Below are positions 48,074-56,520 of a DNA stretch of 64,000 bases, in pieces; position 1 is the first letter of the stretch, and each line of letters begins with the position of its first letter. The stretch is from assembly GCF_900116565.1 (NCBI RefSeq), contig NZ_FPCJ01000001.1:2476540-2540539 (forward strand). Reading direction: 5' to 3'. The translations under genes and the position numbers were made by a program. Origin of the DNA: Thermoflavifilum thermophilum (GTDB lineage: Bacteria > Bacteroidota > Bacteroidia > Chitinophagales > Chitinophagaceae). Below the pieces are notes generated by a model. It was not told where the DNA came from, made no database searches, and saw only the letters and a list, made by a program, of their open reading frames with translations.

Positions 48074-49090
48074 ATGATGCAAAAGCAAGTTAGTAACGAT
48101 GTACTGGATGTGTTGATAATCGGGGGTGGTCCCATCGGGATGGCCTGTGGCATTGAATGTGTGAAAAATGATCTTTCTTATTTGATTGTAGAAAAAGGTT
48201 GCCTGGTGAATTCCTTGTACAACTATCCGCTGAACATGACCTTTTTCTCCACTTCCGATCGCCTGGAAATAGGAGGTGTGCCTTTTATTTCTCACAACTA
48301 TAAACCCACGCGCTCCGAAGCACTCGAATACTACCGCCGGGTGGCATTGAGCTGGAAGCTGCACATAAAGCTTTATGAAGCCGTAACATTCACAGAAAAA
48401 GAGGGTGATGTTTTTGTCGTGCATACATCTCGCAATCGTACATATCTTACGCGTGCCATTATTGTTGCTACAGGTTTTTATGATATTCCCAACAAACTGA
48501 ATGTGCCGGGCGAAGACCTGCCCAAGGTGCATCATTATTTCCGGGAAGCGCATCCCTATTTTGGCCAGCGTATAGCCGTGATCGGAGCTGCCAATTCAGC
48601 CGTAGATGTAGCACTTGAAACCTACCGCAAGGGCGCCGCAGAGGTGACCATGATCATACGCGAGGAACAAATCTCTGATCGGGTGAAATATTGGGTTAAG
48701 CCCGATATTGAAAACCGCATCCAAAACGGGGAGATCAAAGCCTATTTTCAATCGCATGTAGTGGCTATCCGGGAAGAGGAAATTGATGTGCAGACGCCGC
48801 AGGGGCTCATTACCCTGCCTAATGATTTTGTGCTGGCTATGACAGGCTATCTTCCCAATTTTGAATTGCTGGAAAATCTGGGCGTGCAGATTCAGGATGA
48901 TGAAATGCGCACACCCGTGTACAACGAAGCTACGATGGAAACCAATCAGCCCAACGTATATCTGGCTGGCGTGGTGTGTGGAGGCCTTCAGACCAACAAA
49001 TGGTTCATAGAAAATTCGCGCGTGCATGCCGTGACCATCATCCAGGATTTGAAACGCAAAAAAATGGCTTTGCAATCACAGTTGGTCTGA
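48074..49090 (+). CDS. ypdA: Bacillithiol-disulfide reductase-like flavoprotein YpdA
   Basis: The 338-residue flavoprotein has an FAD-binding GGGPIGMACGIE at about residues 17-28 and an NAD(P)H-binding IAVIGAANSAVDVALE near 163-178. It lacks the CxxC redox pair of thioredoxin reductases, as expected for YpdA. The segment NYPLNMTFFSTSDRLEIGGVP is characteristic. YpdA reduces bacillithiol disulfide with NADPH. Together with BshB1 at 29 kb it implies bacillithiol use. A second ATG at 48077 is possible. The gene is monocistronic. Confidence 0.92.
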   Translation: MMQKQVSNDVLDVLIIGGGPIGMACGIECVKNDLSYLIVEKGCLVNSLYNYPLNMTFFSTSDRLEIGGVPFISHNYKPTRSEALEYYRRVALSWKLHIKLYEAVTFTEKEGDVFVVHTSRNRTYLTRAIIVATGFYDIPNKLNVPGEDLPKVHHYFREAHPYFGQRIAVIGAANSAVDVALETYRKGAAEVTMIIREEQISDRVKYWVKPDIENRIQNGEIKAYFQSHVVAIREEEIDVQTPQGLITLPNDFVLAMTGYLPNFELLENLGVQIQDDEMRTPVYNEATMETNQPNVYLAGVVCGGLQTNKWFIENSRVHAVTIIQDLKRKKMALQSQLV

Positions 49091-49123
49091 TGCAGGGCAG
49101 GCCGTGGATCAGCCCAGAAAAAT

Positions 49124-49157
49124 TTTGAAATTTTCAATAGTTTTTCCCATAACTTTG
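49124..49157 (+). promoter_or_regulatory. Promoter of the arginine operon
   Basis: TTTG (49124-49127), a 22-base gap and TAACTTTG (49150-49157) make a consensus Bacteroidota promoter. Transcription would start near 49163, which leaves a leader of about 280 bases before the first gene. Confidence 0.6.
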
Positions 49158-49162
49158 CAAGC

Positions 49163-49440
49163 TGCAACAGCAAACTTATTTTTCGTTTCACAACTTTTAA
49201 TGCTGAACAGAAATTGAACCAGCAGACTTCATACCACGGTTTTGATCGGTTTTCCAAACGGGGAAGCGTTCATAAGTCTTTGCTGCAACATGCTTTTCGA
49301 CCCCGACGACCTCGCCGTTGATGCAGCTTATTCCCTTCGGGACAGGCACCAGCTGCATCAGTTCCCTCGCTTCATAGCGGTGCGCCTGAAATCCTTTCGT
49401 TTCAATGTTATCTTTTGGTTCTTTTTAATGCCATACAAAG
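49163..49440 (+). promoter_or_regulatory. Long leader of the arginine operon, with hairpin and candidate leader ORF
   Basis: The leader contains a perfect 10-bp stem, TGATGCAGCT (49319-49328) with AGCTGCATCA (49351-49360). Its 22-base loop itself holds TCCC-TTC-GGGA (49332-49342). A reading frame from the ATG at 49290 runs through the hairpin to 49487, overlaps the first structural gene, and has five arginine codons in its first 40. This is the pattern of an attenuator or riboswitch-type control region, but no terminator stem with a T-tract is obvious. Confidence 0.4.
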
Positions 49441-50208
49441 TTGGAAAACAAACAACCGTTTATCGTACGGGTAGCCACAGCAGATGATGCCCGTTATGCC
49501 GAACAGATTACCGAAGAAATGGCTGCTTCGGCCAAAGCCAGAGGCACCGGCATTGCACGTCGTTCACCGGAGTACATCCGCCAGAAAATGGAGGAAGGCA
49601 AAGCCGTGATTGCGGTCACGCCCGACGGCCAATGGGTAGGCTTTTGCTACATCGAAGCCTGGAGCCATGGTAAGTTTGTGGCCAATTCCGGTCTCATCGT
49701 GTCTCCACCCTTCAGGGGAAGCGGTGCTGCCAAGGCTATCAAGCGCAAAATATTTGAATTATCGCGTCAGAAATATCCTGAGGCCAAAATATTTGGTCTT
49801 ACTACTACATTGGCCGTAATGAAAATCAATTCTGAACTCGGTTATGTGCCGGTTACCTATTCCGAACTAACTGACGATGATGAATTCTGGAAAGGCTGTC
49901 AGAGTTGTGTGAACTATGAAATTCTGATGAGCAAAAACCGAAAAAACTGCCTCTGCACGGCCATGCTGTTTGATCCGGCAGCCCAAAAGAAAAAGGAAGC
50001 AGAGACAACAACTGCTGCCCCTGCTGCATCCACACAAAGAATCAATGGAAAGAAAAGAAGAACCTTTGCTGGAAACTGGAAATTGTTTGAACGCTGGCTG
50101 CGCTTCAAGCGCTATGTGTTGCTCAAGCCCTACCGTAAAAAAGATGAAGCTGCTGTGGCCGGAGGGCCTGTACAGGAAAAAAGAAAGTTTTTCTTGGATC
50201 TGTTTTAA
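49441..50208 (+). CDS. GNAT acyltransferase, likely first enzyme of arginine synthesis
   Basis: The 255-residue protein has a GNAT domain in about residues 8-180. IVRVATADDARYAEQI begins the fold, and the acyl-CoA-binding loop is PPFRGSGAAKAIKRKI near 98. A basic, low-complexity tail follows (KKKEAETTTAAPAASTQ, then GKKRRTF and RFKRYVLLKPYRKK). The gene leads an operon of argG, argC, argD, argF', argB and argE, which lacks another enzyme for the first acylation of glutamate, so an N-acetyl- or N-succinylglutamate synthase role is inferred. The start is a TTG at 49441; no ATG is in frame after the stop at 49426. Confidence 0.8.
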   Translation: MENKQPFIVRVATADDARYAEQITEEMAASAKARGTGIARRSPEYIRQKMEEGKAVIAVTPDGQWVGFCYIEAWSHGKFVANSGLIVSPPFRGSGAAKAIKRKIFELSRQKYPEAKIFGLTTTLAVMKINSELGYVPVTYSELTDDDEFWKGCQSCVNYEILMSKNRKNCLCTAMLFDPAAQKKKEAETTTAAPAASTQRINGKKRRTFAGNWKLFERWLRFKRYVLLKPYRKKDEAAVAGGPVQEKRKFFLDLF

Positions 50209-50217
50209 TTCGAAGTC

Positions 50218-51420
50218 ATGAAGAAAAAAGTTGTTTTAGGATTCAGCGGAGGATTGGATACCTCCTTTTGTGTGAAATACCTGAGTGAAGAAAAAGGGTA
50301 TGAAGTCTATACAGTTACCATTGACACGGGCGGATTTTCACCGGAAGAGCTGCGATCCATTGAACAACGAGCCTATCAATTAGGAGCCGTTCAGCATATT
50401 ACGATTGATGCCGTAAAACCTTACTATGAACGAGTGCTTAAATATCTCATTTTTGGGAATGTACTGAAAAACAATACTTACCCGCTCAGTGTGAGTGCCG
50501 AGCGCATGACTCAGGCTCTGATACTGGTGGAAAAAGCTCAGGAAATACAGGCCGATGCCATAGCCCATGGCAGTACCGGTGCCGGCAATGATCAGGTACG
50601 TTTTGATATGGTGTTTCATGTGCTGGCTCCGGAAAAAGAAATCATCACTCCCATCCGCGATCTGCGCCTGAGCCGGGAAGCAGAAGTGCAATACCTCAAA
50701 GAGCACGGCGTGGATGTTTCGGCTGAAAAGTCGGCATATTCCATCAACAAAGGCATCTGGGGCACTTCTGTGGGAGGGAAAGAAACTCTTACATCGGATC
50801 AGTTTTTGCCGGAATCAGCCTTCCCGCATCAGGTGAGCCGGCACGAACCGGAAGATGTTGTCTTGCAGTTTGAAAAAGGTGAACCGGTGGGATTAAATGA
50901 TGAATCTTATGCTCATCCGGTGGAAGTGATCCGTGCATTGAACGATAAAGCATCTGCTTTTGGTATCGGACGAGATATCCATGTAGGAGATACCATTATT
51001 GGTATCAAAGGCCGGGTGGGATTTGAAGCCGCTGGCCCGTTGATTATCCTGAAAGCACATCATGCACTGGAAAAACATGTGCTTACCAAATGGCAACTGA
51101 TGATGAAAGATCAGCTGGCCATCTTTTACGGCAACTGGGTGCATGAGGGTTTATTGCTTGATCCGGTGATGCGCGATATAGAATCGTTTTTCATTTCTTC
51201 CCAACAAAGGGTTACGGGAAAAGTATTGATCACACTGTTCCCATATCGTTTTCAGGTTAATGGGATTCAATCGCCCTATGATCTCATGCAAAGCAAATTC
51301 GGAACTTATGGCGAGATGAACAACGCCTGGACGGGTGAAGATGTGAGGGGTTTTTCCAAAATCATGGCCAATGGACTCAGAATATGGTATCAGACCCATC
51401 CAAAACAGGAAGCAAAATGA
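50218..51420 (+). CDS. argG: Argininosuccinate synthase
   Basis: The 400-residue enzyme joins citrulline and aspartate with ATP. The N-terminal ATP-binding loop is VLGFSGGLDTSFCVKYL, with SGGLDTS. The citrulline/aspartate part has HGSTGAGNDQVRFD, and SAYSINKGIWGTSVGG is the later conserved block. Length is standard. It follows the GNAT gene by 9 bases and overlaps argC by ATGA (51417-51420), so the genes are translated in a coupled manner. Confidence 0.95.
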   Translation: MKKKVVLGFSGGLDTSFCVKYLSEEKGYEVYTVTIDTGGFSPEELRSIEQRAYQLGAVQHITIDAVKPYYERVLKYLIFGNVLKNNTYPLSVSAERMTQALILVEKAQEIQADAIAHGSTGAGNDQVRFDMVFHVLAPEKEIITPIRDLRLSREAEVQYLKEHGVDVSAEKSAYSINKGIWGTSVGGKETLTSDQFLPESAFPHQVSRHEPEDVVLQFEKGEPVGLNDESYAHPVEVIRALNDKASAFGIGRDIHVGDTIIGIKGRVGFEAAGPLIILKAHHALEKHVLTKWQLMMKDQLAIFYGNWVHEGLLLDPVMRDIESFFISSQQRVTGKVLITLFPYRFQVNGIQSPYDLMQSKFGTYGEMNNAWTGEDVRGFSKIMANGLRIWYQTHPKQEAK

Positions 51421-52412
51421 GCGACGGACAACAAAAAATAAAAGTCGGAATTATCGGTGGTGCAGGTTACACCGGGGGTGAGTTGATCCGTTTGCTGCTG
51501 TATCATCCCAAGGTGCAAATCAGTTTTGTCCACAGCCGCAGCCATGCCGGTGAACCACTTTATCAGGTGCATCGCGACTTGTTGGGCGATACTTCCATGC
51601 AGTTTACAGACCAGCTGGAGGAAGATGCGGATGTGTGGTTTCTTTGTATGGGGCATGGTGAATCATCGCGTTTTTTGCAGGAACATCGTTTACCTGATCA
51701 TATACGGATTATTGATCTGAGTCAGGATTTCCGATTGCAGGAACATGCACGTGATCTGGCCGGGCGGGAGTTTGTATATGGATTACCGGAATGGCAGCGC
51801 GACAGAATCCGGCAGGCACACGATATTGCCAATCCCGGATGCTTTGCTACGGCCATTCAGCTGGGGTTATTGCCCCTGGCCAAGGCCGGGATATTGGCCG
51901 ATGTCCATACAACTGCCATCACAGGCTCCACAGGCGCCGGTCAGAAACTGCAGCCCAGCACCCATTTTTCCTGGCGCGCCAATAATATCAATGCCTATAA
52001 AACCCTTACCCATCAGCATCTCAACGAAATTCGCCAAACGCTGCTGGCCTTGCAGCCTGACTATGACGGACAATTATTTTTCATTCCATGGCGGGGCGAT
52101 TTTACCCGCGGCATATTTGTGAGTTCACAACTGCATTGTACCCTGAGCCAGGAGGAAGTATTTGCGTTGTATGAAGATTATTATGCCTCTCATCCTTTTA
52201 CACATGTGAGCAGGGAAATGGTAGATATCAAACAGGTGGTAAATACCAACAAGGTATTGATCTATCCAGAGAAAGTGGGTGACCAGCTGGTGGTGCATTC
52301 GGTGGAAGATAATCTGATCAAAGGCGCTTCCGGACAGGCTGTGCAAAATCTGAATCTGATGATGGGATGGGATGAAACATTGGGGTTGCGGTTAAAAGCA
52401 AGTGTATTTTAA
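51417..52412 (+). CDS. argC: N-acetyl-gamma-glutamyl-phosphate reductase
   Basis: The 331-residue enzyme reduces N-acyl-glutamyl phosphate to the semialdehyde with NADPH. The Rossmann start KVGIIGGAGYTGGELIRLLL is complete, and the active-site block IANPGCFATAIQLGLLPL holds the catalytic cysteine. HQHLNEIRQTL and VHSVEDNLIKGASGQAVQN (two histidine and active-site blocks) follow. The ATG overlaps the argG stop. The frame also continues upstream into argG, but the family start is at 51417. Confidence 0.95.
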   Translation: MSDGQQKIKVGIIGGAGYTGGELIRLLLYHPKVQISFVHSRSHAGEPLYQVHRDLLGDTSMQFTDQLEEDADVWFLCMGHGESSRFLQEHRLPDHIRIIDLSQDFRLQEHARDLAGREFVYGLPEWQRDRIRQAHDIANPGCFATAIQLGLLPLAKAGILADVHTTAITGSTGAGQKLQPSTHFSWRANNINAYKTLTHQHLNEIRQTLLALQPDYDGQLFFIPWRGDFTRGIFVSSQLHCTLSQEEVFALYEDYYASHPFTHVSREMVDIKQVVNTNKVLIYPEKVGDQLVVHSVEDNLIKGASGQAVQNLNLMMGWDETLGLRLKASVF

Positions 52413-52423
52413 AACATCCAATC

Positions 52424-53596
52424 ATGCCTCTTTTTGACGTATATCAATTGTTACCTATTACGCCTGTACGGGCGGAAGGTAGGTTTATATGGGATGAACA
52501 AGGTAACCGGTATCTGGACCTGTACGGCGGCCATGCCGTGATTTCCATCGGACATAGCCATCCGCATTACATCCAGCGCATAGAGCAACAACTCAGGCAA
52601 ATTGCTTTTTATTCCAATAGCGTCGTCAATCCTTTGCAGGAAGAGCTGGCAGCAAAACTGTGCAGCTTCAGTGGATATGCCGACTATCAGCTTTTTCTCT
52701 GCAATTCCGGTGCGGAAGCCAATGAAAACGCGCTGAAGCTGGCATCTTTTGTTACTGGCCGCAAGCGTGTGGTGGCTTTCCGGCAATCTTTCCATGGCCG
52801 TACTTCCGGGGCCGTGGCTGTAACCGACAATCCGGCCATTCAAGCTCCCTTTAATCAGCAACATGAAGTGAGCTTTGTGCCCCTGAATGATCGGGAAGCT
52901 TTGCAACAGGTCATGGATACAGATGTGGCTGCCGTGATTGTGGAAGGTATTCAGGGGGTGGGAGGCATTCGCTTGCCGGATGATGATTTTCTGCAGTATG
53001 TGGCCGCATTGTGTGAAACTTACCACAGCTTGCTGATTCTGGATGAAGTGCAATCAGGCTTCGGTCGCACGGGTAGGTTTTTTGCCCATCAACATGCAGG
53101 CATCAAGCCACACCTCATTACCATGGCTAAGGGCATGGGCAATGGTTTTCCCATCGGAGGTGTGTTGATTCATCCGGATATTCAACCCCGCAAAGGCATG
53201 CTGGGCACTACATTTGGCGGTGGTTACCTGGCTTGTGCGGCTGCATTGGCCGTATTGGAAATCATGGAGCAGGAAAACCTGATCGGCCATGCTGCACAGA
53301 TGGGTGATTGGCTTATGCAGCAGCTGAGTCAGATACCAGAAATTGAAAACCTGCGGGGAAGGGGGCTGATGATGGGTTTGGATCCCAAACCGGATTTTGC
53401 CGGGCTGCGGAAACACCTGTTGCAGCAGCATCGGATCTTTACCGGAGAGGCCAAACCTCATACCATTCGCCTGTTGCCCCCCCTGAACCTGCAACCAGAG
53501 GAAGCCGAGCTTTTTTTGCAGGCTTTGCGGCAATCTCTGGATGAAATACGCAAGGAAACGTCTGCTGTTTCGTTTCACGAAAAACAAAAAAGTTAA
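52424..53596 (+). CDS. argD: Acylornithine aminotransferase
   Basis: The 390-residue class III aminotransferase uses pyridoxal phosphate to convert N-acyl-glutamate semialdehyde to N-acylornithine. Blocks include YLDLYGGHAVISIGHSHP, FLCNSGAEANENALKLA and ILDEVQSGFGRTGRFFAHQ, then ITMAKGMGNGFPIGGV, where the lysine in AKGMG binds PLP. Length is normal. It follows argC by 11 bases. Acyl specificity (acetyl or succinyl) cannot be assigned. Confidence 0.94.
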   Translation: MPLFDVYQLLPITPVRAEGRFIWDEQGNRYLDLYGGHAVISIGHSHPHYIQRIEQQLRQIAFYSNSVVNPLQEELAAKLCSFSGYADYQLFLCNSGAEANENALKLASFVTGRKRVVAFRQSFHGRTSGAVAVTDNPAIQAPFNQQHEVSFVPLNDREALQQVMDTDVAAVIVEGIQGVGGIRLPDDDFLQYVAALCETYHSLLILDEVQSGFGRTGRFFAHQHAGIKPHLITMAKGMGNGFPIGGVLIHPDIQPRKGMLGTTFGGGYLACAAALAVLEIMEQENLIGHAAQMGDWLMQQLSQIPEIENLRGRGLMMGLDPKPDFAGLRKHLLQQHRIFTGEAKPHTIRLLPPLNLQPEEAELFLQALRQSLDEIRKETSAVSFHEKQKS

Positions 53597-53605
53597 TCGT
53601 ACGAC

Positions 53606-54562
53606 ATGAAACAATTTCTTTCGGTACACGATGTGCAGGATATTGATGCGCTGATTCAAAGGGCCTTGAGTTACAAGGCTGATCCCTGGAAGGATCAGCA
53701 TTTGGGTAAAAACAAACGTGTGGGCTTGCTGTTTTTGAATCCAAGTTTGCGTACCCGGCTCAGTACGCAGATTGCCGCCCGTTATCTGGGTATGGAAGTG
53801 ATTGTGTTTAATGTGGATAAGGAAGGATGGGCGCTGGAATTTGAAGAAGGAGCCATCATGAGTGGCAATACCAGCGAGCATGTTAAAGATGCAGCTCCTA
53901 TCCTGGGAAAATATTTCGATATTCTTTGCATTCGCACATTCCCTACGTTGGTAAACAAAGAAGAAGATTACAGCGAACTATACATCCGTCAATTTGCCAA
54001 ATATGCAGGTGTACCGGTGGTGAGTCTGGAAAGCGCCACCCTGCATCCTTTGCAAAGTCTCACAGACCTCATCACCATGCATGAATTCTGGCCCAACAGC
54101 AAGGCCCGACCTAAGGTGGTGCTGACCTGGGCCCCGCATGTAAAGCCCCTTCCGCAGTGCGTGGCCAACAGCTTTGCCCAATGGGTGAATGCCTGGGGAA
54201 AAGCGGAATTTGTCATTACCCATCCGGAAGATTATGAACTGGATGAAACCTTTACCCGGGGCGCCTCTATCACCTACGATCAAAACGAAGCCTTGCGCGA
54301 TGCCGATTTTGTGTATGTAAAAAACTGGAGCACCTATCGTGATTACGGAAAAATCTATAGCAATGATCCGGCATGGATGCTCACGGAAGATAAATTGTCC
54401 CTTACCCGAAATGCGCGGGTAATGCATTGCCTGCCTGTGCGGCGAAATGTGGAACTGAGCGATGAAATTCTGGATGGTCCGCACAGCATCGTTACCCATC
54501 AGGCAGCTAATCGGGTATGGGCGGCGCAGGCCGTGTTCAGTGAAATATTGCAGCACCTGTAA
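53606..54562 (+). CDS. argF': N-acetyl/N-succinylornithine carbamoyltransferase
   Basis: The 318-residue enzyme transfers a carbamoyl group to an N-acylated ornithine, not to free ornithine. The carbamoyl phosphate motif reads FLNPSLRTRLSTQ; ordinary ornithine carbamoyltransferases have STRTR. HPLQSLTDLITMHEF and the C-terminal MHCLPVRRNVELSDEIL are also typical of the acylornithine branch, known from Xanthomonas (acetyl) and Bacteroides fragilis (succinyl). By phylum the succinyl form is the better guess, but the residues deciding acyl choice were not checked. Confidence 0.9.
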   Translation: MKQFLSVHDVQDIDALIQRALSYKADPWKDQHLGKNKRVGLLFLNPSLRTRLSTQIAARYLGMEVIVFNVDKEGWALEFEEGAIMSGNTSEHVKDAAPILGKYFDILCIRTFPTLVNKEEDYSELYIRQFAKYAGVPVVSLESATLHPLQSLTDLITMHEFWPNSKARPKVVLTWAPHVKPLPQCVANSFAQWVNAWGKAEFVITHPEDYELDETFTRGASITYDQNEALRDADFVYVKNWSTYRDYGKIYSNDPAWMLTEDKLSLTRNARVMHCLPVRRNVELSDEILDGPHSIVTHQAANRVWAAQAVFSEILQHL

Positions 54563-54573
54563 AACAAAATTGT

Positions 54574-55383
54574 ATGACATCCTCATCCAGGCTGTATGTG
54601 ATTAAGATCGGAGGGCAGGTCATTGATGATGAAGCTGCCTGTGCAGATTTTCTGCAGCAGTTTGCCGCATTACCTGGCCTCAAGGTGCTGGTGCACGGAG
54701 GAGGTAAGCTGGCCACTCGCATTGGTGAGCGGCTGGGCATTACCAGTCAATATGTGCAGGGACGCCGGATTACGGATGAAGCCACGTTGCAGCTGGTAAC
54801 CATGGTATATGGTGGGCTCATCAATAGACAACTGGTGGCCCGGCTGCAAGCCCTGGGATGTATGGCTATTGGGCTAACCGGTGCAGATATGGATCTGATG
54901 CGGGCTACAAAGCGGCCGGTAAAAGAAGTGGATTATGGCTGGGTAGGTGATCTTATGGCCGAGGATGTACGTGTGGAGGCTTTTGTGCAATTGTTTGATG
55001 CCGGCCAGGTGCCGGTACTGGCGCCGCTCACACACGATGGACAGGGACATTTGCTGAATACCAATGCAGATACGATTGCCTCCTGTGTAGCTGTGGCTCT
55101 TTCGGCTCATTATCGGGTGCAACTCGTATTTTGTTTTGATCAGAAAGGTGTATTGCGTCGTCCGGAAGATCCGGATTCCGTTATTCCTCTGATCCGGCCC
55201 GCCGATGTGCCGGCACTCATGGAGGAAGGGGCTTTGCGCGATGGTATTTTGCCCAAGCTCGACAATGCTTTTGCGGCCTGCCGGGCTGGTGTGGAACAGG
55301 TGCTTATCGGCCCTGCCCATGCCTTATCGGCTCTTTCCGCATCATCATCCGGGCAAAGCTTTGGTACTATCATCCGCCTTTGA
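54574..55383 (+). CDS. argB: N-acylglutamate kinase
   Basis: The 269-residue amino-acid kinase phosphorylates N-acylglutamate. The start is VIKIGGQVIDDEA; KVLVHGGGKLATRIGERLG gives the HGGG substrate loop, and IGLTGADMDLMRATKR and LLNTNADTIASCVAVAL are ATP/fold blocks. Compared with the common KxGG motif, this family in Bacteroidota has KIGG. It starts 11 bases after argF'. No N-terminal arginine-feedback helix is apparent, so feedback by arginine may be weak or absent. Confidence 0.93.
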   Translation: MTSSSRLYVIKIGGQVIDDEAACADFLQQFAALPGLKVLVHGGGKLATRIGERLGITSQYVQGRRITDEATLQLVTMVYGGLINRQLVARLQALGCMAIGLTGADMDLMRATKRPVKEVDYGWVGDLMAEDVRVEAFVQLFDAGQVPVLAPLTHDGQGHLLNTNADTIASCVAVALSAHYRVQLVFCFDQKGVLRRPEDPDSVIPLIRPADVPALMEEGALRDGILPKLDNAFAACRAGVEQVLIGPAHALSALSASSSGQSFGTIIRL

Positions 55384-55437: not shown

Positions 55438-56520
55438 ATGTGGAATATTTCCCTATACCACGACGCAGTTGCCTTATTGCGTCAGCTGATTGCTACGCCA
55501 TCTTTCAGCCGGGAGGAAGACCAAACGGCTCAATTAATAGCTCAATTTCTGCAATCGCACGGGGTGGCTCCCAATCGCCATCTGCACAATATCTGGGCAG
55601 TCAACCGTTACTTTGATCCGGCCAAACCGGGTATTTTGTTAAACTCCCATCACGATACCGTAAAGCCCAATCCAGCCTATACCCGTGATCCTTTTGAACC
55701 TGCAATTGAAGATGGTAAACTTTTTGGCCTTGGCAGCAATGATGCCGGAGGTTGCCTGGTATCACTCATTGCAGCTTTTATGCATTTTTATGACCGGCCC
55801 GATTTGCCTTATAACCTTATTTTGACTGCTACAGCTGAAGAAGAAATCTCGGGCTTCAACGGCATAGAAAGCATTTTACCTCAGTTACCCGGGTTTGATT
55901 TTGCCATTGTAGGCGAACCGACATTAACCCAGATGGCAGTTGCTGAAAAAGGCCTGCTGGTGCTGGATTGTACAGCCCATGGCAAAGCAGGACATGCAGC
56001 GCGGCAGGAAGGCGAAAATGCGATTTACAAAGCTTTGCCGGATATCGAATGGTTTCGCACGTTCCGGTTCCCGAAGGTTTCACAGATGTTGGGAGAAGTG
56101 CATATGAATGTAACCATGATCCAGGCCGGACAACAACATAATGTGGTACCTGCGTGTTGCCATTTTACCGTAGATATTCGCGTGACGGATGCATATACCC
56201 ATGAAGAAATTCTGGACATTGTGAGCAAACACGTGCAATGCGAGGTAAAGCCCCGCTCCCTGCGTATGCGCAGCTCATCCATACCCATGGATCATCCCGT
56301 GGTGCAGGCAGCCCAGAGGATCGGCAAACAATTGTATGGCTCACCCACAACTTCCGATCAGGCGCTTATTCCGGGTCCATCTGTGAAAATGGGTCCGGGC
56401 GATTCGGCCCGTTCACATAGCGCAGATGAGTTTATTTATCTGGATGAAATCAAAGAAGGAATTGATACCTATATCAGACTGCTGGAAGAAGTCTTTCAGG
56501 AAAAGAAAAAAAGCATGTAG
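55438..56520 (+). CDS. argE: M20-family N-acylornithine/N-acylcitrulline deacylase
   Basis: The 360-residue zinc peptidase removes the acyl group near the end of the pathway. Metal-ligand motifs are NSHHDTVKP near residue 75, GSNDAGGCLVSLI near 100, AEEEISGFNGIES near 136 and GEPT near 160. A dimerisation part follows, then GPGDSARSHSADEFIYLDEI with the last histidine ligand. With an acylornithine carbamoyltransferase upstream, its likely substrate is N-acylcitrulline. It is the last gene of the operon; its stop codon lies in a hairpin. Confidence 0.9.
   Translation: MWNISLYHDAVALLRQLIATPSFSREEDQTAQLIAQFLQSHGVAPNRHLHNIWAVNRYFDPAKPGILLNSHHDTVKPNPAYTRDPFEPAIEDGKLFGLGSNDAGGCLVSLIAAFMHFYDRPDLPYNLILTATAEEEISGFNGIESILPQLPGFDFAIVGEPTLTQMAVAEKGLLVLDCTAHGKAGHAARQEGENAIYKALPDIEWFRTFRFPKVSQMLGEVHMNVTMIQAGQQHNVVPACCHFTVDIRVTDAYTHEEILDIVSKHVQCEVKPRSLRMRSSSIPMDHPVVQAAQRIGKQLYGSPTTSDQALIPGPSVKMGPGDSARSHSADEFIYLDEIKEGIDTYIRLLEEVFQEKKKSM

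Follow-up and report, generated by a model that had tools for sequence, protein, structure and literature searches.

Classical attenuators of the trp, his, leu and thr operons carry a short open reading frame (ORF) rich in codons for the end product, followed by alternative RNA pairings. The Bacteroid-trp RNA, for its part, sits before trp operons. It is described as a candidate cis-regulatory RNA of Bacteroidetes (RF01692; PMC2864571), and in Flavobacterium psychrophilum amino-acid biosynthesis operons are reported to show strong clues of leader-peptide attenuation in their upstream regions (PMC9723704). Arginine is the signal in the speF leader of Salmonella, where consecutive Arg codons of the leader ORF orf34 are described as responding to arginine, in an account that involves Rho termination and RNA stability instead of a plain intrinsic terminator (PMC6386406), and in Staphylococcus aureus, where the leader peptide rbfL is described as reading arginine supply with its Arg codons via ribosome pausing (PMC13009471). 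For Actinobacteria, the account of arginine operons in PMC1262725 gives no conserved RNA structures before them, with T-boxes for arginine cited elsewhere. In extracts of the open-access literature, no arginine attenuator is described for Bacteroidota, and an earlier description is possible; within those extracts, the closest prior statement is the general remark on leader-peptide attenuation in Flavobacterium (PMC9723704).

Here, we analyse the leader of the arginine operon in a stretch of 64,000 nucleotides from Thermoflavifilum thermophilum (the window) by comparative genomics and RNA folding. We conclude that this leader is very probably an arginine-specific, ribosome-mediated leader-peptide attenuator of an operon headed by a GNAT-family N-acetyltransferase gene, and that candidate sensors of a similar kind are widespread in the phylum, in genomes that lack the repressor ArgR. 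The operon has the order GNAT-argG-argC-argD-argF'-argB-argE, and a YpdA-type gene upstream of the leader ends at 49090 (Table 1).

Table 1. Features of the arginine operon and its leader (positions are those of the window)
Feature	Position	Strand	Remarks
Promoter upstream element TTTTG	49123..49127	+	Bacteroidota type
Promoter -7 element TAACTTTG	49150..49157	+	predicted transcription start near 49162
Leader RNA of arg operon	49162..49440	+	start predicted from promoter
Leader ORF, TTG start, TGA stop	49214..49321	+	35 residues ending FRPRRPRR
First-pass candidate ORF, +1 frame, ATG start	49290..49487	+	rejected as leader ORF
Arginine block CGA CCC CGA CGA CCT CGC CGT (R P R R P R R)	49298..49318	+	candidate sensor codons
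P1 hairpin, 49319-49328 with 49351-49360	49319..49360	+	predicted; 5' arm begins with the leader stop UGA
P2, P1 loop CAGGCACC 49343-49350 with GGTGCGCCTG 49379-49388, 2-nt bulge	49343..49388	+	predicted; alternative to P1 or pseudoknotted with P1
GNAT-family N-acetyltransferase, arg operon gene 1	49441..50208	+	TTG start at 49441
argG, argininosuccinate synthase	50218..51420	+	TIGR00032 over cut-off
argC, N-acetyl-gamma-glutamyl-phosphate reductase	51384..52412	+	TIGR01850 over cut-off; start codon uncertain
argD-like acetylornithine/succinylornithine transaminase	52424..53596	+	Pfam over cut-off; NCBIfam below cut-off
N-acetylornithine carbamoyltransferase (argF')	53606..54562	+	NF003384 over cut-off
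argB, acetylglutamate kinase	54574..55383	+	TIGR00761 over cut-off
ArgE/DapE-family deacylase	55438..56520	+	Pfam Peptidase_M20 over cut-off; NCBIfam below cut-off

The first-pass annotation of this DNA had placed a promoter at 49124-49157 and the start of transcription about 280 bases before the TTG of the first gene. Both agree with our reading: TTTTG and TAACTTTG together form a promoter of the Bacteroidota type, and the start that it predicts gives a leader of approximately 280 nt up to the TTG at 49441. A generic sigma-70 scan returned no promoter there on the + strand. In 66 of 101 homologous leaders, a TAnnTTTG is found 60-330 nt ahead of the leader stop, compared with 13.6% of mononucleotide shuffles.

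Which reading frame in this leader would sense arginine? An arginine attenuator acting through a leader ORF had been suggested from the start, and the suggestion is well supported in kind, but the ORF is a different one, running from the TTG at 49214 to the TGA at 49321 and encoding LNQQTSYHGFDRFSKRGSVHKSLLQHAFRPRRPRR, in which the TTG would be read as Met. CGA makes up three of the five Arg codons of its terminal block, versus 9 of 140 in eight window genes. Within the genus, four distinct Thermoflavifilum leaders could be compared, too few for covariation; the best match among relatives is a Thermoflavifilum sp. locus (L001), whose leader is identical to that of the same-genus locus L084. 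When the four are aligned, the Arg block differs in L001 only, where AGA replaces CGA as the first codon, which leaves Arg in place, and TGT replaces CGT as the last (Arg to Cys). The start region is invariant in the genus, as are GACCCCGACGACCTCGC.GTTGATG, which comprises the Arg codons and the stop, GCACC.GCTGCATCA, GGTGC.CCT and most of the T-rich 3' stretch; the ORF has diverged in its central part. The window-genus peptide has a pN/pS of 0.86 overall and 0.71 outside the last 12 columns, and third positions are not over-represented among the changes in the three ungapped leaders, whose differences are spread over the codon positions. Given this lack of coding bias in the window genus, we infer translation of the leader there by homology.

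The first-pass annotation had instead proposed the frame from 49290 as a candidate Arg-rich leader ORF. This frame, which starts with ATG, exists and is open, with five Arg codons among its first 40, but its Arg counts across the genus, in four distinct leaders, are 5, 6, 0 and 1, the last in a leader with no ATG for the frame; the ATG is missing from L001 and L084, and its counterpart in L083 ends 15 nt before the gene, compared with approximately 44 nt inside the gene in the window. That it serves as the regulatory leader ORF is thus scarcely credible. Conserved Arg codons, proposed as the feature to look for in the leaders of relatives, were indeed found, although in the frame of 49214-49321 and not in that of 49290.

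To follow the Arg-ended ORF beyond the genus, we collected the regions upstream of the same GNAT gene, using the best 80 of 149 relatives with loci from the best 30 of the matches, and all 61 GNAT genomes of a phylum sample. The resulting 177 loci were reduced to 170 distinct regions by omitting seven (short upstream DNA, N or exact duplication). ORFs were required to start at least 15 codons upstream of their stop and to have at least three of a given residue in the last ten codons, and expectations were taken from dinucleotide shuffles. At least three Arg codons among the last ten are present in 117 of the 170 regions (9.0 expected) and at least four in 76 (1.4 expected), counts in which close relatives are included as non-independent members and a few loci come from a second, weaker GNAT copy in a genome. 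The next highest residues are Leu (28 regions, 31.8 expected) and Ile (16, 11.8 expected). All 19 residues other than Arg are close to expectation or have counts in single digits, a few rare ones being above expectation with four regions each, and Arg alone of the 20 is strongly enriched. A qualifying Arg ORF is absent from 53 of the 170 regions, including seven Bacteroidales MAG loci (L069, L073-L076, L078 and L080). Separately, L145, L150, L152 and L156 share a different short ORF upstream of GNAT (ITSLSRTN.P.TSPEVRML-like), in which Arg codons are spread rather than clustered.

For codon-level comparison, a leader was picked in 101 of the first 110 loci by choosing the most Arg-rich ORF; counts on these 101 leaders lean towards Arg because of that choice, of which the count of 117 in 170 is independent. 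The endings differ by lineage (RRPRI, RPRRGC, RRPHRRIRI, VRR, SRRRPYMPRA and RIPRRR): between lineages the Arg cluster stays and the peptide body varies. Within the last ten codons of the RRPHRRIRI group there are 53 differences, 85% of them at third positions, compared with 32% of 511 elsewhere in the ORF. At the ends of the 101 picked leaders, 146 of 339 Arg codons are CGA, whereas the GNAT genes at these loci use it for 32 of 770, a bias that may owe something to RNA constraint and to shared ancestry.

Sixty Chitinophagaceae genomes were sampled, that of the window among them, and none has a match to ArgR (PF01316), which a control Bacteroides genome does have. Across 148 Bacteroidota genomes, the GNAT operon gene occurs in 61 and ArgR in 55; both occur in two, where the ArgR matches are weak (33 and 27 bits). 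This distribution has a Fisher probability of 2e-14 if shared ancestry is ignored. ArgR genomes also provided a control for the leader ORFs, with 40 of the 55 taken and equal ORF rules applied to both types of locus. In this 148-genome sample, at least three terminal Arg codons are found at 41 of 61 GNAT loci versus 6 of 40 ArgR loci, and at least four at 31 versus 2. The loosest ORF rule gives 42 of 61 versus 16 of 40, and the strictest 41 of 61 versus 4 of 40. In the same sample, scores of argG against TIGR00032 fall into classes, with approximately 490-540 bits in ArgR genomes and two others, approximately 210-290 bits in nearly all GNAT-operon genomes, and 330-460 bits mostly in genomes that have neither ArgR nor the GNAT operon. 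These classes suggest that the arg operons were inherited separately.

The arms of P1, TGATGCAGCT and AGCTGCATCA, form the perfect 10-bp stem that had been recognized at first reading, and its coordinates were exact; the first three bases of the stem are the stop codon of the leader ORF. A stem of this length arises in 6 of 500 shuffles of the leader (1.2%). The smaller hairpin noted inside the stem is present in the window but absent from L001, in which the P1 loop is approximately 15 nt shorter; by reading, the GCACC/GGTGC strands are retained in L001, and so is P1, with a single base bulged out. The leader had also been called structured; as a whole it is not unusually stable (z -0.73; 46 of 200 shuffles fold as well). 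Its 3' part is not clearly more stable than shuffles, and the energy of the stop-codon hairpin in the window is matched by 3 of 20 shuffles. Among 94 leaders, 22 have a stop-codon hairpin stronger than that of any of 20 shuffles (median z -1.05 over the 94), and most leaders of the Cytophagales type or with a VRR ending show no clear sign of one. With the 5' arm of P1 kept unpaired, the situation expected for a ribosome on the stop codon, the loop at 49346-49350 is predicted to pair with 49379-49383, with predicted energies of -6.3 kcal/mol for full P2 versus -13.1 kcal/mol for the P1 stem when its loop is left unpaired. The strands of P1 and P2 are conserved in the genus and hardly vary there, so that they offer no covariation. 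GAACCA at the leader start (49217-49222) could also pair with TGGTTC at 49417-49422, a short way ahead of the GNAT gene; across the genus, the two strands are conserved and do not vary.

These features suggest the following sequence of events. RNA polymerase would start near 49162, and a ribosome would translate the 35-codon ORF. When Arg-tRNA is scarce, the ribosome would slow at the R-P-R-R-P-R-R codons before the stop, whereas with ample arginine it would reach the UGA. Since the UGA lies within the 5' arm of P1, the position of the ribosome would decide between P1 and the alternative P2, and hence set the expression of the operon. The probable direction of the switch is that starvation raises operon expression.

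There is no intrinsic terminator (a GC-rich hairpin followed by a U run) between the leader ORF and GNAT in the window leader, and for this reason we do not class it as a classical transcription attenuator. A hairpin with a U run reaching -10 kcal/mol occurs in 10 of 96 leaders, versus 1.9% of shuffles, so some lineages may use intrinsic termination. In 94 of 101 leaders the spacer has more C than G, which fits Rho; the same holds for 94 of 101 leader ORFs, so the measure does not discriminate. The output step of the arg leader could be Rho-dependent or translational.

Other leaders of the same genome provide a comparison. Upstream of hisG on the - strand (L182) lies a His leader peptide, MKRYVHHHAIRVSPGKPR, with HHH, followed by a strong terminator-like hairpin (AAGGCTTACC...GGTAAGCCTTTTTT), and this locus looks like a textbook his attenuator. 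Upstream of trpE, also on the - strand (L183), a Trp leader peptide, MNFKHVHISWWWHGVKLKSL, with WWW, is likewise followed by a strong terminator-like hairpin, and this leader has no Rfam match to Bacteroid-trp at gathering score. Both fold strongly (z -4.1 for his and -7.7 for trp); their terminator hairpins were read from sequence and folds, and were not flagged by the terminator scan. The arg leader, which has no terminator, therefore differs from both. No Arg leader was found before argH (L178), where a tRNA gene lies upstream, or before carA (L180). No leader was found before ilvB (L185), where the stretch read lies inside the preceding open frame and carries little weight.

Compensatory changes in related leaders, called for at first reading, are found in related genera, but could not be seen within the window genus, which offers four distinct leaders only. 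In 39 loci of related genera (35 distinct, set A1), TGAYAGG...CCTRTCAGTG stands at the leader stop. The A1 set was selected by a pattern that contains both P1 arms, and the 100% P1 pairing in it is thus built in; its one variable P1 pair is C-G in 18, U-A in 14 and U-G in 3. Among the 35 leaders, both-side changes occur at 1 of 8 pairs of P1, 3 of 4 of the inner stem and 5 of 6 of the loop-to-downstream helix, the counterpart of P2. Paired cells amount to 80% in the inner stem, which was not used in the selection, and to 71% in the loop-to-downstream helix. The covariation score is 0.259, compared with 0.029-0.122 when partners are slid, and is reached by none of 500 shuffles; the whole structure has 57 cells with both-side changes versus 23.7 in shuffles. 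The number of both-side pairs (nine) is reached by 42 of 500 shuffles, and that of pair types by 188 of 500. Of 195 family genomes, 58 match a covariance model of the element (R1), and 56 of these have a single match. Twenty R1 loci were fetched, and in the 19 with a detectable GNAT gene the element lies directly upstream of GNAT, at the stop of a frame with an Arg-rich ending (at least RR). The window leader was tried as a member of R1 and rejected, with no window match at E up to 10 and none in its genome or genus. The RNA architecture is thus lineage-specific and the Arg codons general. Many Chitinophagaceae share the sequence CUGAYAGGACGAGC...GCCCCURUCAGUGAA at the leader stop, as at the A1 loci L046, L092 and L099, and it is conserved beyond the needs of pairing; its inner stem covaries, and some of the loci add a contact between the loop and GGAYUGGUNAUCC.

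Such an element invites the reading, also raised by the first-pass annotation, that the leader is a metabolite-sensing RNA (an arginine or ornithine riboswitch) in which translation plays no role. High conservation of CUGAYAGGACGAGC...GCCCCURUCAGUG, covariation of its inner stem and loop contact, and its single-copy occurrence in most genomes that have it all speak for this reading in related genera. However, the element has no match in the window or its genus, and an Arg-ended ORF, common across Bacteroidota, would be superfluous for a pure riboswitch. Neither the window nor 20 related loci have an Rfam match at gathering score; at E up to 5 there are two hits only, both far below threshold, at chance level and on the - strand. 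With no positive support in the window, and with the Arg codons as the feature shared across the phylum, we consider a riboswitch very improbable.

Nascent-peptide arrest responding to arginine is known from the fungal arginine attenuator peptides and the bacterial SpeFL, and here too the leader peptide, beyond its codons, might stall the ribosome in response to arginine. The related-genus THTKQFAFHAPITSGVYAVGFDVFTF peptide lends itself to this idea, as its body is strongly conserved: third positions account for 80% of 318 body differences (8 distinct sequences), with a pN/pS of 0.24 (18 rows) once the last 12 columns are set aside. In the window genus, however, the body is not conserved, and across lineages the peptides share little besides the Arg cluster, which makes arrest an improbable explanation of the window leader, for which attenuation through the Arg codons remains our preferred reading. 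Leaders with THTKQFAFHAPITSGVYAVGFDVFTF, such as L025, L031 and L243, are themselves unlike ordinary attenuators in that purifying selection on the body of the peptide is strong, and the THTKQFAFHAPITSGVYAVGFDVFTF peptide could act as an arrest peptide.

Could a random Arg-rich ORF and a hairpin simply have met in this leader? The modest stability of the window leader, and the shuffles in which an equally long stem appears, would allow for it. Yet the excess of Arg-ended ORFs over expectation, the ArgR-locus control and the conservation of blocks within the genus leave coincidence a negligible probability.

More tentatively, and with some reserve about the scheme as a whole, Bacteroidota might have either an ArgR-type operon or an ArgR-less GNAT-type operon run by Arg leader peptides. 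In the family, the stop codon would be built into a hairpin whose loop pairs downstream (as a pseudoknot or kissing contact), the arrival of the ribosome at the stop would be the switch, and the window genus would work without an intrinsic terminator. Leader-peptide attenuation by arginine would explain the control of arginine synthesis without ArgR in a large part of Bacteroidota. It would also offer a natural series of candidate sensors, in which the number of Arg codons, the codon choice (CGA) and the RNA architecture vary, and would make attenuation testable in a phylum that is not known to rely on Shine-Dalgarno initiation.

In conclusion, the window leader can be set beside the described systems as follows. 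Neither the window nor the 20 arg loci scanned has an RF01692 match at gathering score, which separates them from Bacteroid-trp. F. psychrophilum belongs to the same phylum, and the extracts of PMC9723704 name pheA and hisG among conserved 5' elements and make no mention of arginine. The rbfL peptide differs in that, as described, it acts on translation by blocking the ribosome-binding site of a biofilm regulator and has two Arg codons, one of them rare (PMC13009471). The Salmonella orf34, likened here by its description and not by homology, controls putrescine synthesis rather than arginine synthesis, and its two consecutive Arg codons lie in a conserved domain, whereas the window leader has a terminal cluster of variable sequence (PMC6386406). 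With the classical attenuators, the window leader shares end-product codons, here just before predicted alternative pairings, in a position after the promoter and upstream of a biosynthetic operon. It differs from them in that the end product is arginine, in having no intrinsic terminator, in placing the stop codon inside the first stem, and in using the loop of that stem for the predicted alternative pairing.
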